64,000 nt of DNA, from contig NZ_FNQY01000016.1 in NCBI RefSeq assembly GCF_900107765.1, positions 1 through 64,000 on the forward strand, in the 5' to 3' direction. Shown piece after piece: positions 34,822-45,561 of this stretch. This DNA is from Arachidicoccus rhizosphaerae (GTDB lineage Bacteria > Bacteroidota > Bacteroidia > Chitinophagales > Chitinophagaceae). Each line of letters opens with the position of its first letter. Position 1 is the stretch's first letter. The notes beneath the pieces were generated by a model. It had not been told where the DNA came from. It made no database searches and worked only from the letters and a program-made list of their open reading frames with translations. A program made the translations under genes and the position numbers.

Positions 34822-35634
34822 CTATCTCTTAGGACTTAAATGCTGCGCAATAGGCAGTTGGAGTTCCACCAGCTGATGCAACACCATTTCTGCCATTTTC
34901 CGGGCACCGAGTTCATTAAAATGGGTATCATCGTGAACGCCTTTAGGATAATGAGGATGTTCACCGGGTTCTAACTGGTTATATAGCAACTTAGAGGTTT
35001 CCGGTCCCATTTTTTTCAGTAAATCCATACTGAGCTTTTCTAAATCAATTAAATCCACCTGCTCTTCCCTGGCAGTTTTAATAACTAAAGGCCCATATAC
35101 CGGATGCGTATCTATCAGACGGCCGGAAGAATCAAAATGCCGGCGCGCTACGGGGGTGAGTAACACCGGAGTCGCCCCCTTTTCCCGCGTATCCTGAATA
35201 AAGGTTTTCAGATTTGCGACAAACTGGGGAGCAGGCGTGTAACTTCTTTTTGTAGGCACTTCGTCATTATGGCCAAACTCAATGAAGACATAATCGCCTT
35301 TTGAAAGGGTTTTCAGTACATCTTTCCAACGGCCCTCTGCAATAAAAGTGCTGGTGCTGCGTCCGTTTTGTGCCCGGTTATCCACGACTACGGTGGAGTC
35401 AAACATATAGTGAAACGGCATTCCCCATCCCGTTTCCGGATACGCCCGCACCGCCTTATCCGCCATGGTGGAATCTCCTATCATATAGATGGTCGTCTTA
35501 TGTTGTAATAACCAGGTAAAAGACATACAAGTCATTAGCAACGCCAATATAATAATATTGCGTCCCCTGAACAGGGCGCTGCCTTTTGATTTAAAAAATA
35601 CATTATTAAAGCGTTGTCGGCTGATCTTCGTCAT
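34822..35634 (-). CDS. CE12 rhamnogalacturonan/pectin acetylesterase
   Basis: This is a 270-residue SGNH-fold acetylesterase. The hydrophobic signal is at about 26-43. Motifs: IGDSTMAD (Ser55), QNGRSTSTF (Asn90), GHND (121-124) and the DDTHFNELG block with Asp236 and His238. The pattern is that of the YesT/RhgT CE12 enzymes, which remove O-acetyl groups from rhamnogalacturonan. It is the first gene of its unit, divergent from the LacI-type regulator, with dyad sites between them. Confidence 0.93.
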   Translation of the reverse strand: MTKISRQRFNNVFFKSKGSALFRGRNIIILALLMTCMSFTWLLQHKTTIYMIGDSTMADKAVRAYPETGWGMPFHYMFDSTVVVDNRAQNGRSTSTFIAEGRWKDVLKTLSKGDYVFIEFGHNDEVPTKRSYTPAPQFVANLKTFIQDTREKGATPVLLTPVARRHFDSSGRLIDTHPVYGPLVIKTAREEQVDLIDLEKLSMDLLKKMGPETSKLLYNQLEPGEHPHYPKGVHDDTHFNELGARKMAEMVLHQLVELQLPIAQHLSPKR

Positions 35635-37228: not shown

Positions 37229-38896
37229 TTATTTTGCCTGCTCACTGAGCGGCAATACCCTGAAAAAGTCAAAATCCGCATATCCCGCATCATTAGTCGT
37301 CTTCTCTGCAGTGGCATAGATGCCGATTTTAGCACCGGTCCACTTTCCTGGCGTTGGGGTAAAATCCTGTGGTACCGCCGTATATTTTTGACCGTCCAGG
37401 CTATAATAAAACTTACAAAGCGCATGGTTAGGTTGAGGATTATGTACATCTACCCGGATCCACACTTCTGGTTTTTTAAGGATGGTAACCGTGGTTTTCT
37501 TTTCCGGATTTCCTTTATCTGAGGCCTTACAAATTCCTTGTTCCAACCGGTAAGCGGTGCCGTCACTGGCAATAGCCAGCTTGGCATAATCCAGGCCCAG
37601 TACCACAAGCCCCGCCTCCTGACTGCCATTTTTCTCATTTGCCGAAAATTGCAGTTGGGTGATTACGGAAAAACTGTCTGCAGGAAATTTCTGCGCCAGG
37701 ATATTGGGAATTTCCCATAAATTCGTAGCCGTTTGGGTATGAAGTGCATATAACCTTAAATGCCCATCATTACCTGTCATCAGCCATCTTCCGCTGCCAT
37801 TGGCCTCCCATTGCCATTGCAGTCCTAAAGAATGCTCATTAAATTCATCGGACTGCTGCGGTGTAAGCCTTGGATATGCTTTGCCTACATCAGGCTTTTT
37901 GTAGGTCATTACCGGCTGCCCTTTGCCATCCCCGTCTTTATCCTCCCCAATAACAGGCCAGTCATGAACCCATTTCATGGGTTGTAAATGCAGGACCCTT
38001 CCATAGGCTTCTTTATCCTGAAAATGTAAAAACCAATCCTGATTTGTCTGGGTGGTTACCCATGCACCCTGGTGAGGTCCGTTAACCGGACTTTTACCCT
38101 GATCCATAACGACTTTCCTCTCATAAGGTCCCATTAGCGTTTTAGATCGCAAAACCAACTGCCAGCCGGTAGATACCCCTCCTGCCGGCGCAAAAATGTA
38201 GTAGTAACCGTTCCTCTTATAAATCTTGGGGCCTTCGATGGTCGGGTCATCTATATGACCGTCATATACAATATGATCTTCTCCCACAACCTTTGACCCG
38301 TCTTCGTTCATGGGGGCAATGGCGATCACGCTTTTAATGCCCGCCCGGCTGCCTGCATAAGCATGTACCAGCCAGACCTTACCGTCATCGTCCCATAAAG
38401 GACATGGGTCAATGATTCCTTTACCAGGAAATACCAGGACCGGATCTGACCATTTTTTTGCGGGATCATCCGTTTTTATCATGTAAATGCCGTAATCCGG
38501 ATCCGGATAATAAATATAGAATTCCTTATTATGGTACCGAATAGCGGGCGCCCAGACACCATTGCCATGTTGAGGGATATTAAATACATCCTCCGGAATC
38601 TGTTTTTGCAGACCATGATTGATAATGGTCCAGTTGACCAGGTCTTTGGAATGCAAAATAGGCAACCCCGGAATATCCTCAAAACTGGAAGCGACCAGAT
38701 AATAGTCCTCCCCTACGCGAATGGCATCGGGATCTGAATAATCGGCATTGATGATCGGATTTTTATAGGTTCCATTACCCTGGTCGGCAACCCAGACTTT
38801 GGATACATAGTTATTTTGTCCAAAACAAGGAGCGCCCAGACTCGCAGAACCAAGAACAATTGACAAAAAATATTTGGGTAAATGACGATGCTGCAT
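37229..38896 (-). CDS. GH43 glycosidase with C-terminal beta-sandwich
   Basis: This is a 555-residue exported enzyme. The signal peptide is at about 1-26 (CFGQ). The five-bladed propeller (about 45-335) carries ADYSDPDAI (base Asp55), IIDPCPLWDDDGK (pKa-modulating Asp) and IEGPKIYKRNGYYYIF (acid Glu). The C-terminal jelly-roll (about 350-550; FSANEKNGSQEAGLVVLG, YATAEKTTNDAGYADFDFF) is the GH43 C2-type domain found in GH43 subfamilies such as 12. In a pectin locus it probably removes arabinose, galactose or xylose from side chains; the specificity is not readable. It ends the PL10-GH95-GH43 unit, 69 nt after GH95. Confidence 0.9.
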   Translation of the reverse strand: MQHRHLPKYFLSIVLGSASLGAPCFGQNNYVSKVWVADQGNGTYKNPIINADYSDPDAIRVGEDYYLVASSFEDIPGLPILHSKDLVNWTIINHGLQKQIPEDVFNIPQHGNGVWAPAIRYHNKEFYIYYPDPDYGIYMIKTDDPAKKWSDPVLVFPGKGIIDPCPLWDDDGKVWLVHAYAGSRAGIKSVIAIAPMNEDGSKVVGEDHIVYDGHIDDPTIEGPKIYKRNGYYYIFAPAGGVSTGWQLVLRSKTLMGPYERKVVMDQGKSPVNGPHQGAWVTTQTNQDWFLHFQDKEAYGRVLHLQPMKWVHDWPVIGEDKDGDGKGQPVMTYKKPDVGKAYPRLTPQQSDEFNEHSLGLQWQWEANGSGRWLMTGNDGHLRLYALHTQTATNLWEIPNILAQKFPADSFSVITQLQFSANEKNGSQEAGLVVLGLDYAKLAIASDGTAYRLEQGICKASDKGNPEKKTTVTILKKPEVWIRVDVHNPQPNHALCKFYYSLDGQKYTAVPQDFTPTPGKWTGAKIGIYATAEKTTNDAGYADFDFFRVLPLSEQAK

Positions 38897-38965: not shown

Positions 38966-41455
38966 TTAAGGGTAAAAAGTGTAACTCTTTCCCTTTTCAG
39001 TGGTAAAATCAAAGAGCGTCGTTGCAGGAAATTGAGGTATGCTTAAGTCTGCACTATCCGCCTTTTTGCTGATTAAAGGACGACTGATGGCAGCTATTTT
39101 ATAAAACGGATTGGCGTTCTTCTGATTCCTCGTGACAGCAGTTAAGGCAACATTTCCTTTAAGTGTTAAACCGGCAGGCAACCGGAGCCGGCAATTACCA
39201 CCCAGGGCGGAATAAATTTTCAAATAAGTGACTTGCCCCTTATCCCAGTCAATATCCACCTGAAAACCGCCTCTGGCCCTGAGCCCTTTAATACTTCCTT
39301 TACGCCACTGATCCGGTAAGGCCGGCAGAATCTCCAGGGCTCCGTCCTGAGACTGAAGCAGCATCTCGGCAATCCCTGAAGTACACCCAAAATTTCCGTC
39401 AATCTGAAAAGGAGGATGTGCATCAAATAAATTCGGGTAAGTGCCTCCGCCTTCTCCTTTTTTGAGTTCAGGTGCCGGGCGCAGCTGATCCTGAATTAAT
39501 TTCCAGCTGTGATTACCATCTTTCATACGCGCCCACCAGTTGACTTTCCAACCCATGGACCAGCCGGTAGACACATCTCCTCTGCTGATCAGCGTTCTTG
39601 TGGCAGCTGCAAATAATTCCGGATGATCATAAGGTGAAATCTGATTACTGGGGAACAGGCCGTATAAATGAGAGATATGCCGGTGCGTATCATGTTGCTT
39701 ATCCCAGTCCTCCAGCCATTCCTGCAACTGACCATACTGACCTACCTGCATCGGAGGCAGTCGTTGAATCATCTTTTTTAAGGTATCGGCCAATAACTGA
39801 TCCTTATTCAGAAACTGACTGGCTGCAATCGCCTGGGAGAATACATCAAAAACAATCTGGTTATCCATGGTCGTGCCCGCACTAAGTCCTACATCCTTCA
39901 TATATTGATGCTCAGGTGACATGGAAGGAGCAACCACCAGATAATGATGATCAGGTTCCTCTTGTAAAACATCCACAAAATATAAAGCAGCACCTTTTAG
40001 TATATCATAGTTTTTTTCCAGAAAGCGCTGATCTCCTGAATATAAAAAATGCTGCCATAAATGGGTACTGAGCCAGGCACCCCCCATGGGCCACATACCA
40101 TAAAAACCTCCATCCACCGGGCCGGTAATGCGCCATATATCCGTGTTATGATGGGCATTCCATCCTCTGGCATGGTACATCTGACTAGCGGAAGCTTTCC
40201 CGGTCACAGATAAGTCACGCAGCATTTCAAAAAGCGGCCCTGACATTTCCGGTAAACCGGTCACCTCAGAAGGCCAGTAATTCATCTCTGTATTAATATT
40301 AATGGTGTATTTGCTGCCCCAGGGCGGCGCTATTTTATCGTTCCAGATTCCCTGTAGGTTAGCCGGCTGCCCTCCCGGCTGGCTGGAGCTGATCAAAAGA
40401 TACCTGCCAAACTGAAAATAAAGGGCCACCAGTGACGGATCATAATGCTGATCAAAATCTTTTATTCGCCGGTCCGTGGTAGCAGTGGCGGTATCGGGGG
40501 TTTCTAACTGAAAACTGACCCGGTCAAAAAATTTGTGATAAATCGCTTTGTGTGCGTTTAAGGCCAGGTTATAATCTTTGGAGATGGCCCTATTCAGGTA
40601 GTCGGCCGCCCGCTGATCCGGATTTAAACTTATGTCGTGGTAATTTTTAAAATTTGTTCCGATCGAGATATAAATAGTTGCCGTACTGGCTCCCTCAATA
40701 GTTAGCGTTGAGTCACTTACAGTCAGCTGTCCACCCTGAAGGACCGGTTTTACAAGCGTAGTAAAACGAACCTTTCCTTTTTTGCCTTCTACGCTCCCGC
40801 TGTGACCTTTTAAAACCAACATCTTATCTGAGGTAGAAACTTCGTGCACGATCTGCGCACTGCTCATGCCCAGTGTACAGTTTATGGCTCCCGGAGCATC
40901 TGCACTTAACCTGACAATGATGACATCATCTGAAAAGGAAGCAATTACCGTTCTTTTAAAATGCACGCCGCCTGCCTCATAACTTGTTTGCGTGACGGCG
41001 TCACTGATATTTAAACTTCTATGGTACTGCTGTATATTTTGCTGATCCTTGAACCGGATATATAAATCACCTACCGGTTGATAAGGCATTCCATAATCAC
41101 TGTTAGCCGGGGCTTCTCGTGGGAAGACACGGTTGGACATATCCTGAGCGGCCTTGTATTGTTTTGAAAATAACAATTTACGAATCGCTACAATACTGTC
41201 ATAAACATGGGGTAAAATATTATTACCAGGCTCACCGGCCCAAACGGTTTGTTCATTTAGCTGGAGATGTTCCTCTGGCACACCTCCAAACACCATGGCC
41301 CCCAACCGGCCGTTACCTACCGGCAATGCCTGATTCCAGTTGCTTGCCGGATGATCATATTGCAGTAATAAAGGCTGCTGCGCAAAGCTGCCAGCCATAC
41401 CTAATAATAACAGGGCAAATAAACAAACACTTTTAAGCCTACAATTGTAACCCAT
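38966..41455 (-). CDS. GH95 alpha-L-fucosidase/alpha-L-galactosidase
   Basis: This 829-residue exported enzyme has a signal peptide ending GSFAQ (about residue 26). The GH95 N-terminal block [15 protein letters not shown] and [10 protein letters not shown] is followed by the catalytic (alpha/alpha)6 part with [12 protein letters not shown] (the two Asn that activate water), HHNTDIW and QIDGNFG (Asp). The ATG at 41455 is preferred over a longer reading, which would overlap the transposase gene. The likely job is trimming alpha-L-fucose or alpha-L-galactose from pectin or xyloglucan side chains. An IS4 element is inserted only 11 nt before its ATG and separates it from PL10. Confidence 0.92.
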
Positions 41456-41461
41456 ATTTTT

Positions 41462-41466
41462 AATTT
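41462..41466. repeat. Target-site duplication, left copy
   Basis: AATTT directly outside the left end of the IS4-type element, matching AATTT at 42820-42824. Confidence 0.5.
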
Positions 41467-42819
41467 CAATAGTTCGGTAATTAATTAAGCGGCCATTGAG
41501 CCGATATTTAAGCATTTTGAATAGAGCTTTTTTATTTTATTGCAATTCAGCTCTAGACCCAAGTTTGAAAAAATAGTTTCCGTGAGGTATTTGTTGTAGT
41601 ACCATGTTTTGATACTCCTCATGGAAAACGGGATGTCTGATTTGTCTTTCAGACTAGCCCAACAGGTTAACTTCATAAGTGATACGGACATGAGCGATAA
41701 ATTAAAATGGTTATATAATTTGTTTTCACTGACCGCCTGGCACTCTTCCAGGCCGGTATATTGTTTTGCGTCTCGTATTAGAAACTCAATCTGGAATCGT
41801 AATCCATAATATTGCATGATCTTCTTTCCACTCATATTAATGTCGGTACTTAAGAATACGGTATGTCCTGTACCCTGTTTGTGTTTCAGATACACCACTT
41901 TAGCTTCTCGTTTTAAGGTGACACACCATACTACTAACTCAAAGGCCAGAATATGATCATCTTCATAGAACAATTTCCATCTACGTTTATCGATATTGTT
42001 CATATCGACTTTTCCTGCGTAACGGCGTTTTCTGCCCCGGCCTGTCTTCTGTGGCCCTTTATACAAGTACTGAAGGTTCGCGTCTGGTCGCATACGGGTA
42101 ATCACCTGCAAACCCATTTTCAACATGGGTTCAATAAACGTTTTCTTCATAAAGTAGCCGTCTACCGCCAGATAATCAGTAAAAGACTTAATTCGACCAA
42201 TGTTGTTTCGGATAATACCCACGTAATGATCCATCAAGGCATTTTTCATTTCTCCAGGTGTCTGTATCGCTTCGATGGAATAGGCTGTTGCAGCCTCAAC
42301 ATCAACCAGTGCCAGACAGCCTATTTCCAGTCCCGCTTTAGCCCGCTGGTCCTTGCCGCTCCAGAACCTGCCTTTGCCAAAGGTCTTTTTTCCACTTTTC
42401 GGGATGAAGCTCGGATCAAAGGCTGCGATACACTCTTTAGCCTTGAGGCCGCCAAAGGAGCTGTCAAACAATGCCCGGAAGTTCATTTTCTTACTAAACT
42501 GATTCCGAATGCTTTTTTCAGAATACTGACCGTCAGCATACCGGAAAAGGTTCAGGAAATTGTGCCTTACCGGCAACATGATCCATTTTTCAAAGATCCA
42601 GCCCAGAAATTTCTTCTGGGGTTTGGTCAATTCATTAACTTGATTTATTCTTGCACTGATAAAGCGCATCGCTTTATTAAAGGCGGCGGTTTTATTTTTC
42701 ACACAATATTCTACCGCCTTTTTTCTTCTCTTTCTCCGCCTGTGAATAAATTCCCTACAAAATCAAGAAAATTTTATTTTATCCACATTTTTCCGGCCTT
42801 AAAAACTACCGGAGTATTG
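41467..42819 (-). mobile_element. IS4-family insertion sequence, complete (about 1353 bp)
   Basis: The left end reads CAATAGTTCGGTAATT. The reverse complement of the right end reads CAATACTCCGGTAGTT, giving imperfect inverted repeats of about 25 nt (CAATAsTyCGGTArTT, then TTAAG and GGCC). The element carries a single intact transposase and is flanked by AATTT on both sides. It sits between the PL10 and GH95 genes. Confidence 0.75.
41485..42702 (-). CDS. IS4-family transposase
   Basis: This is a 405-residue DDE transposase. The first catalytic Asp lies in [13 protein letters not shown] and the second in [13 protein letters not shown]. The signature Y-(2)-R-(3)-E-(6)-K of IS4 transposases is perfect in [16 protein letters not shown]. 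The frame is intact, so the element may be active or recently inserted. It is transcribed in the same direction as the PUL genes, so read-through into GH95 is possible. Confidence 0.93.
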
Positions 42820-42824
42820 AATTT
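42820..42824. repeat. Target-site duplication, right copy
   Basis: AATTT directly outside the right end of the IS4-type element. Confidence 0.5.
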
Positions 42825-42886
42825 AATAATTTTCAAATAATTAATCATAAACAGGACTCAAAGTCCCCGCTATCACCATCCGGCAC

Positions 42887-43957
42887 CTAATCCCCATACT
42901 GCTCCAGCCATTTAGCATAGTCTTTTGTTATAATCCGCTCCGGCCAGCTGCCGTACCAGCTATACCCAAGCCTTCTTTCCGTTTCAATTTCTTGTAAATT
43001 ATATTTTTTCTGCCCGTCTCTGCCACAAAAAAATGGCCGGTTGGTGCCGATTTCATAATACCTGGCCCATATCCTGCTGTTTTCAGTTTTTTTAAGGACC
43101 ACATTCTTACCCCCGCCGGGTTCATTCGGATCCTCCACCTTTTGAACCGTATACCCTTCAATAGCCACCGACTTAAGCCAATCAACGGCACCTGTAACGG
43201 CAGCTTTAACCGCTGCACCGGGACGTGGTTGATTCATCAGAAATTCAACGATCGCCGCCGATTCGGCCGATGCAAGACCTACCAGTTCAAATGACCTGGC
43301 TTTTTCAGGCAATAAGGTATTTTTATTATATTGTTGATTCCAGCCGGTTCTCTTACCATTAACCTTTATCTGTGTTTTCAGGATGCAGCCTATTCCCTTT
43401 TGCAGGGCAGTGGCACAACGTGGCTGATACTTAGGATCCACCCATTCATAACCATTTTTTTGCAGTACTACATTATCTAATACGTTTAAAACATTGACAA
43501 TGGCATTATCATTAAAAGTCACCTGACTCCGATATAAACTGCTATCCGGATAGTACTGCGGCCAGCCTCCGTTGTCATACTGAGCTTTCAGCAAATAGTC
43601 TATCCCTTTTTGAGCAGATAGCAAATAAGCACTGTCCCTGGTTTTATCAAAAGCCTTTACCAAATAATTAATTTCCCTTGAGGTCGCTTTATTATCAATG
43701 GTGGCATCCTTTAACCCCTTTTCCTGTTTTATCTGGTATTTTTGGGCCTCTGTGAGGGAAATATCATAAACTATTTTCCTGCCATGAACGGCTTTTGCCC
43801 AACCACCGCTTAACCGCTGATACAGCAGCATATTTTCTGCTACCTGGTCTTGAGCCGCAGGTCTTTTATTGGATTGGGCATAATTGAACATCGCAACACC
43901 CGCAAATAGCACACTCAGACTCATGCATCTGATTATCCTTTTTAAATGGTTATTCAT
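42887..43957 (-). CDS. PL10 pectate lyase
   Basis: This is a 356-residue exported pectate lyase of family 10. The signal peptide ends FNYAQ (about residue 28). Typical blocks are ENMLLYQRLSGGWAK, ATIDNKATSREINYL, YDNGGWPQYYPDSSLYRSQ, TFNDNAIVNVLNVL, FELVGLASAES and WARYYEIGTNRPFFCGRDG. It should cleave polygalacturonate by beta-elimination with calcium, making the unsaturated ends that GH105 later removes. It heads unit C with its own -7 box and dyad. The IS4 element begins 67 nt after its stop codon. Confidence 0.93.
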   Translation of the reverse strand: MNNHLKRIIRCMSLSVLFAGVAMFNYAQSNKRPAAQDQVAENMLLYQRLSGGWAKAVHGRKIVYDISLTEAQKYQIKQEKGLKDATIDNKATSREINYLVKAFDKTRDSAYLLSAQKGIDYLLKAQYDNGGWPQYYPDSSLYRSQVTFNDNAIVNVLNVLDNVVLQKNGYEWVDPKYQPRCATALQKGIGCILKTQIKVNGKRTGWNQQYNKNTLLPEKARSFELVGLASAESAAIVEFLMNQPRPGAAVKAAVTGAVDWLKSVAIEGYTVQKVEDPNEPGGGKNVVLKKTENSRIWARYYEIGTNRPFFCGRDGQKKYNLQEIETERRLGYSWYGSWPERIITKDYAKWLEQYGD

Positions 43958-44054
43958 AATCTATTATTGAGCCGGCACATTCGTAGTTGCGCCATACTTT
44001 TATTAATGATAAAAAGGGATGCATTTGGGATTGTCTACCAAAAAATGATTCATC

Positions 44055-44062
44055 CAAATTTA
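44055..44062 (-). promoter_or_regulatory. -7 box of the PL10 unit
   Basis: The minus strand reads TAAATTTG (exact TAnnTTTG), 97 nt before the PL10 ATG. No -33 TTTG is seen; dyad site 4 follows exactly 45 nt away. Confidence 0.6.
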
Positions 44063-44107
44063 ATTACTTGCATCCAGCAATTTAAAAGAACGCCTTAAAA
44101 AAATTAC

Positions 44108-44131
44108 GCAATCGATGACAATACCTTATAT
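44108..44131. promoter_or_regulatory. PUL dyad site 4 (half site)
   Basis: GCAATCGAT, preceded by ATTAC; the promoter-distal arm is not conserved. It has the same position relative to the -7 box as sites 1, 6 and 7. Confidence 0.55.
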
Positions 44132-44174
44132 ATCACTCATAATCTATCTATTATACTTAAAACCGTCCACATAT

Positions 44175-45521: not shown

Positions 45522-45561
45522 CCGATCGTCTTTTATGTACAAGTAATTATTTAACGGACGC

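Follow-up and report, generated by a model that had tools for sequence, protein, structure and literature searches.

The pectin cluster and the element inserted into it

The window, i.e., the whole stretch of 64,000 nucleotides that was analysed (G000:C16:1-64000), is taken from a 4.87-Mb draft Arachidicoccus (Chitinophagaceae) genome in 54 contigs and includes a gene cluster for pectin utilisation. On the minus strand this cluster encodes, in order, SusD, a DUF5123-like protein, GH28, a pectinesterase, a pectate lyase, GH95 and GH43; the gene after GH43, which codes for a LacI regulator, is on the plus strand. The pectinesterase and the pectate lyase are hereafter referred to by the CAZy names CE8 and, following the sequence-only reading, PL10. 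Three of these genes are PL10 (42887–43957, minus strand; Pfam Pec_lyase, 5.5e-100), GH95 (38966–41455, minus strand), which encodes an enzyme of 829 aa with full-length domains and no stop (match to the solved GH95 structure 4ufc, E 2.9e-249), and GH43 (37229–38896, minus strand; Pfam Glyco_hydro_43, 4.8e-68).

Between the PL10 stop, which ends at 42887, and the GH95 ATG at 41455 lies an insertion sequence (IS) of 1353 bp (41467–42819, minus strand), whose edge is 11 nt from this ATG; the element breaks no reading frame and has the same orientation as the operon. Its transposase gene (41485–42702, minus strand) begins with GTG and constitutes a single open frame for an intact DDE transposase of 405 aa (Pfam DDE_Tnp_1, 2.5e-10) in which the motif Y-2-R-3-E-6-K (YREK) is complete and matches perfectly. 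The terminal inverted repeats, CAATACTCCGGTAGTTTT on the transposase 5′ side (42802–42819, minus strand) and CAATAGTTCGGTAATTAA directly 3′ of the transposase stop (41467–41484, plus strand), are matched but imperfect, since 13 of their 18 positions agree and the unbroken run comprises the first 5 only. The element is bordered by a target-site duplication, AATTT, one copy of which is on the GH95 side (41462–41466) and the other on the PL10 side (42820–42824). The boundaries of the element, the duplication and the integrity of the transposase, all proposed by the sequence-only reading, were confirmed on rechecking, as were the matched ends, with the qualification just given. Likewise, recalculation bears out that removal of the IS and of one AATTT leaves a PL10–GH95 gap of 73 nt.

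That the IS entered a PL10–GH95–GH43 unit, as had been claimed, is borne out by another species of the genus, Arachidicoccus species G004, in which PL10 and GH95 are adjacent, 67 nt apart and without an insert, in a flanking order that matches that of the window (CE8 before, GH43 and LacI after). This is the sole congener in which close counterparts to the two genes were seen (identity 66% for PL10 and 75% for GH95, in searches of 147 genomes of the family each); in the same family search, congener G001 lacked a match to PL10 at E 1e-60, and its GH95 is 53% identical. The PL10–GH95 intergenic DNA of the window and that of G004 are too diverged for confident alignment, so that what G004 shows is the arrangement and not the ancestral letters. 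Because of the duplication and of the G004 arrangement, it is well supported that the insertion took place on this lineage, after its split from G004. Dating the insertion against G004 was abandoned, the synonymous sites being saturated, a condition that makes the identities to G004 (GH95 73.7%, GH43 79.2%, PL10 64.1%, CE8 60.5%) uninformative on the time since insertion.

The two clusters differ in another respect. Between GH28 and CE8, G004 carries two genes, one GH2-like (1024 aa) and the other for a GDSL hydrolase (272 aa) (L042:5120-9044; Pfam), that are missing here, where GH28 and CE8 are separated by 19 nt (45543–45561); no close match to either gene was found in this genome, the best being 27% identical and a partial one, at 35257–35550 in the window, 43%.

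Expression of GH95 and GH43 downstream of the element

The sequence-only reading held that the insertion takes the native leader and the ribosome-binding region from GH95. This statement is not fully supported: GH95 has indeed lost the sequence beyond 11 nt, but the 11 nt adjoining its ATG, the A-rich AAATTAAAAAT, are unchanged by the insertion and retain an A at both −3 and −6, as in the empty site. According to passages of PMC6847099, Bacteroidetes lack Shine–Dalgarno sites and initiation is promoted by A at −3, −6, −12 and −13. At positions −12 and −13 the T,T of the empty site has become G,T, neither state offering an A. The mean unpaired probability around the start is 0.58 after the insertion vs 0.47 before it (one fold each, with no control), so that, by prediction, the insertion has not made the GH95 start less open. 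The GH95 frame is also open upstream for 20 codons (41456–41515, minus strand), back to an ATG at 41515 within the IS, from which a GH95 protein with a 20-residue N-terminal extension is possible.

As to transcription, a terminator scan returned 2 sites vs 1.4 expected, one between PL10 and the IS and the other within the IS on the strand opposite to the genes; no terminator-like site was found within the IS on the coding strand. The former site is a weak hairpin in native DNA (42853–42867, minus strand), and the region folds no better than shuffles (z −0.78). Promoters were sought with both the sigma-70 and the Bacteroidota consensus. Exact TAHHTTTG, the Bacteroidota consensus, does not occur in either of the two full IS copies of this genome on either strand and, in the window as a whole, is not enriched (36 found vs 42.5 expected). 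A single site with one mismatch, TATTTTTT, is present in the last part of the IS, at a distance of 120 nt from the GH95 ATG. When a −33 element was demanded, 2 sites were found vs 1.8 in shuffles, and both lie downstream of the GH95 start. A promoter within the IS was thus set aside, nothing being above chance under either consensus, and the earlier proposal of a promoter in the element is not fully supported. Upstream of the IS, the nearest exact match to the Bacteroidota −7 element on the coding strand is TAAATTTG (44055–44062, minus strand), located in the CE8–PL10 gap (43958–44174), which is 217 nt long here vs 86 nt in G004. Since this gap is longer than its G004 counterpart and holds TAAATTTG, PL10 may begin its own transcript there; at the corresponding place in G004 the match is not present.

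Because neither a terminator-like site on the coding strand nor an exact promoter consensus was found in the IS, the simplest view is that transcription reads through from upstream, and a dependence of GH95 and GH43 on such read-through is plausible. The account that we consider likely as a whole is that the 73-nt PL10–GH95 gap of the cluster received a DDE insertion sequence after this species' lineage had separated from that of G004, and that both downstream genes, GH95 and GH43, probably remain expressed. Most of their transcription would start upstream of the IS, most likely at or before PL10, and run through it, with translation presumably initiating at the native GH95 ATG. Expression of both genes would probably be lowered, not lost. 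In favor of this account are the duplication and the paired ends of the IS, the second copy with its own duplication, the uninterrupted G004 arrangement, the absence of stops from GH95 and GH43, their identities to G004, which are higher than those of PL10 and CE8, the preserved start context of GH95 and the lack of a terminator-like site on the coding strand of the IS; the weak native hairpin between PL10 and the IS, not above shuffles, counts against read-through. Furthermore, Rho-dependent polarity could cut GH95 expression if ribosomes did not translate the read-through RNA over the 184 nt that precede the start of the transposase, or over the transposase frame.

Two other outcomes were weighed. 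GH95 and GH43 might now be driven by an outward promoter supplied by the IS and hence be free of the pectin signal. The transposase gene does point at GH95 and ends only 29 nt from the GH95 ATG, so that a transposase transcript would enter GH95, and the one-mismatch TATTTTTT speaks for this possibility; yet the lack of an exact TAHHTTTG in both copies and the finding that promoter-like sites are no commoner than in shuffles make such a takeover unlikely. Alternatively, the insertion could have acted as a polar mutation, silencing GH95 and GH43 and sending both toward decay. The position of the IS between genes of one unit and the weak hairpin ahead of it would agree with silencing, as would a cluster that is not static, judging from the GH2-like and GDSL genes missing here, which however G004 may have gained; but both genes are of full length, their domains are intact and no terminator-like site was found within the IS on their coding strand, so that silencing is decidedly improbable.

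Copies of the element and its wider group

The genome harbors a second full copy (L002, G000:C9:14990-16343) of 1354 bp, 92% identical to the IS of the window, which has similar ends and a 6-bp duplication of its own, CTTTTA. An assembly error or a chimera in place of a real insertion, conceivable in a draft of 54 contigs with two copies of the element, can be practically dismissed, for the two copies show 8% divergence and are bordered by separate duplications, and the flanking DNA is collinear with that of G004. Between the transposase genes of the two full copies dS is 0.30 and dN 0.034; these values, together with the 92% identity, indicate that the copies diverged mostly as working elements and are not the products of a single recent burst. 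This divergence gives no date for the insertion at 41467.

The C9 copy is also situated between two genes and runs in their direction, GH2 preceding it and an aldo/keto reductase gene, found in 5 of the 5 congeners searched, following 72 nt after it; no clean empty site for this copy was found in the congeners, the upstream DNA being unrelated by eye. In addition, two end fragments of a related element (L003/L004, G000:C27:311866-313028) lie on opposite strands, separated by 779 bp of other DNA that includes small ORFs.

Relatives of the transposase were collected from related genomes, from the phylum and from plasmid records. Matches, the genome under study included, were obtained in 4 of 59 relatives and in 4 of 395 genomes of the phylum (E 1e-30), and among the 295 genomes searched within the class, this genome alone gave a match at E 1e-50; a phage collection contained no DNA similar to the IS, and the literature collection searched contained no paper pairing Arachidicoccus with a transposase. 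Members of the group occur in Arachidicoccus, Bacteroides, Persicobacter, Leptolyngbya and Deinococcus. Each of the 24 loci that were compared (23 distinct elements) has a frame of 356–467 aa with the YREK pattern, a count in which the script chose the frame by looking for that very pattern.

Among the 19 distinct copies with paired CAAT ends, a duplication was found in 11 (5 bp in one, 6 bp in seven, 7 bp in two and 8 bp in one) and none was seen in the remaining 8; L091, L092, L099 and L041, which lack a convincing end pair, and L098, which as scanned repeats L088, were left out of this tally. When flanks were paired across different IS copies as a control, matches over at least 4 bases arose in 6 of 342 pairings, two of these six, both 6 bp long, being the reciprocal pair L093/L097. 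In light of this control, of the separate duplication of the C9 copy and of the uninterrupted G004 arrangement, the insertion seen in the window is more than a chance pattern. L093 and L097 reside on opposite strands of a Deinococcus plasmid (CP094464.1), and the left flank of each repeats 6 bp of the other's right flank, for which the best reading is that recombination swapped the flanks of two insertions, a sign of an inversion between the two IS copies. Another plasmid record, that of Parabacteroides distasonis (L076, NZ_OY725802.1), is a 1477-bp circle whose sole annotated feature is a related transposase gene; it could represent an IS excised in circular form.

Near the 5′ end of the IS there is an inverted pair of the DnaA-box-like site TTATNCACA (42741–42749, minus strand, and 42779–42787, plus strand), 38 nt apart from start to start. 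The pair is kept in three Arachidicoccus elements, i.e., that of the window, the C9 copy and L041, and is absent as a pair from all other loci of the 24-locus comparison. L041, an element of Arachidicoccus ginsenosidivorans Gsoil 809 whose transposase is 66% identical, has the same 38-nt spacing, but differs in that it has no convincing right end, being perhaps truncated, and occupies a different site. Passages of PMC3347997 report a DnaA site at the ends of Tn5 as well. A straightforward DnaA-box reading of the pair was set aside since the DNA up to 1.5 kb from the match to the host dnaA contains no TTATNCACA site and the pair is missing from the other loci. A protective hairpin at the 5′ end of the window IS was likewise dropped: when 13 elements were folded against shuffles, four were clearly above them (L082, L083, L086 and L093; z −2.9 to −4.8) and L084 and L087 slightly so (z about −2), and the folding was unconvincing for the window copy (z −1.55, or −1.78 over another span), the C9 copy (−0.52) and L041 (−1.08), as well as for L085, L088, L089 and L007.

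Family assignment and meaning of the insertion

The sequence-only reading placed the element in IS4, a label that is doubtful. In the scheme given in passages of PMC2266710, IS4 combines a complete YREK with duplications of 7–13 bp, whereas in IS701, ISH3 and IS1634 YREK is mostly incomplete and the duplications are of 4–6 bp. The full YREK and the -AATR end of the window element fit IS4; on the other hand, its 5-bp duplication and the 6-bp one of the C9 copy fall outside the range of Table 1 in that source, its ends fit IS701 equally and the best IS4 model of NCBIfam scores 58.8 bits against a cut-off of 250. More specifically, it resembles subgroup IS4, as described there, in its complete YREK and its DDE_Tnp_1 domain, and differs from it in the duplication, which is 10–13 bp in that subgroup vs 5–6 bp in this genome; its ends agree with the pattern -AATR--------WTW of the subgroup at 6 and 7 of 7 positions. 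The three copies of the wider group with duplications of 7–8 bp would by length fit subgroup ISPepr1 or others of the same source. Taken together, the group couples YREK with a duplication of ~6 bp, a pairing not listed in Table 1.

As regards IS701, the window ends agree with its pattern ---YACT-Y--YR at 7 and 6 of 7 positions (3 of 7 at both ends of the Deinococcus copies), and the best NCBIfam score is that of IS701_3 (101 bits, below the cut-off of 170). Since the window ends fit IS4 and IS701 about equally, they do not decide the family. IS701, as characterized in PMC2266710, differs by duplications that are almost always 4 bp, as opposed to 5 and 6 bp in this genome, by the YREK tyrosine, found in only 4 of its 27 elements, and by a size of 1400–1550 bp vs 1353 here. 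IS1634, according to the same passages, shares AT-rich duplications of 5–6 bp (here AATTT and CTTTTA) and an end pattern with which the window ends agree at 2 and 3 of 3 positions; its differences are that most members lack the YREK arginine and that they measure 1500–2000 bp, as against a complete YREK and 1353 bp.

A further comparison is offered by IS2621, which in passages of PMC11219805 is an active element with a length of 1,322 bp and perfect repeats of 19 bp; the passages on IS2621 give no family for it and no length for its duplication. L089 of Deinococcus radiodurans, with 1322 bp and a 19-bp perfect run at its ends, looks like IS2621 from its size and ends. The IS of the window resembles IS2621 in its DDE transposase with full YREK, its CAAT ends and its size of ~1.3 kb, and differs in a transposase about 32–34% identical over the match and in imperfect ends; in the Deinococcus copies the duplication is 6–8 bp in 5 of 10, vs 5 bp at the window IS.

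A single composite reading of these data can be advanced tentatively and remains doubtful: the group would join a complete YREK, CAATR ends and a half-turn duplication of ~6 bp, features that the published IS4 scheme does not combine, which would mean that YREK and long duplications are not tied to each other; jointly with this, the conserved DnaA-box-like inverted pair of the Arachidicoccus branch could tie transposition to replication.

Overall, the observation from which this analysis started is right, the mechanism attached to it is half right and its importance is modest. The IS is uncommon and intact; the event itself is ordinary, one more IS in a sugar-utilisation operon. Its main use is as a natural test of polarity for an IS inserted in the direction of the operon in Bacteroidota, in which initiation needs no Shine–Dalgarno sequence, and the wider point is one of classification, the duplication length of the group being at odds with the criterion by which IS4 is told apart from its sister families.
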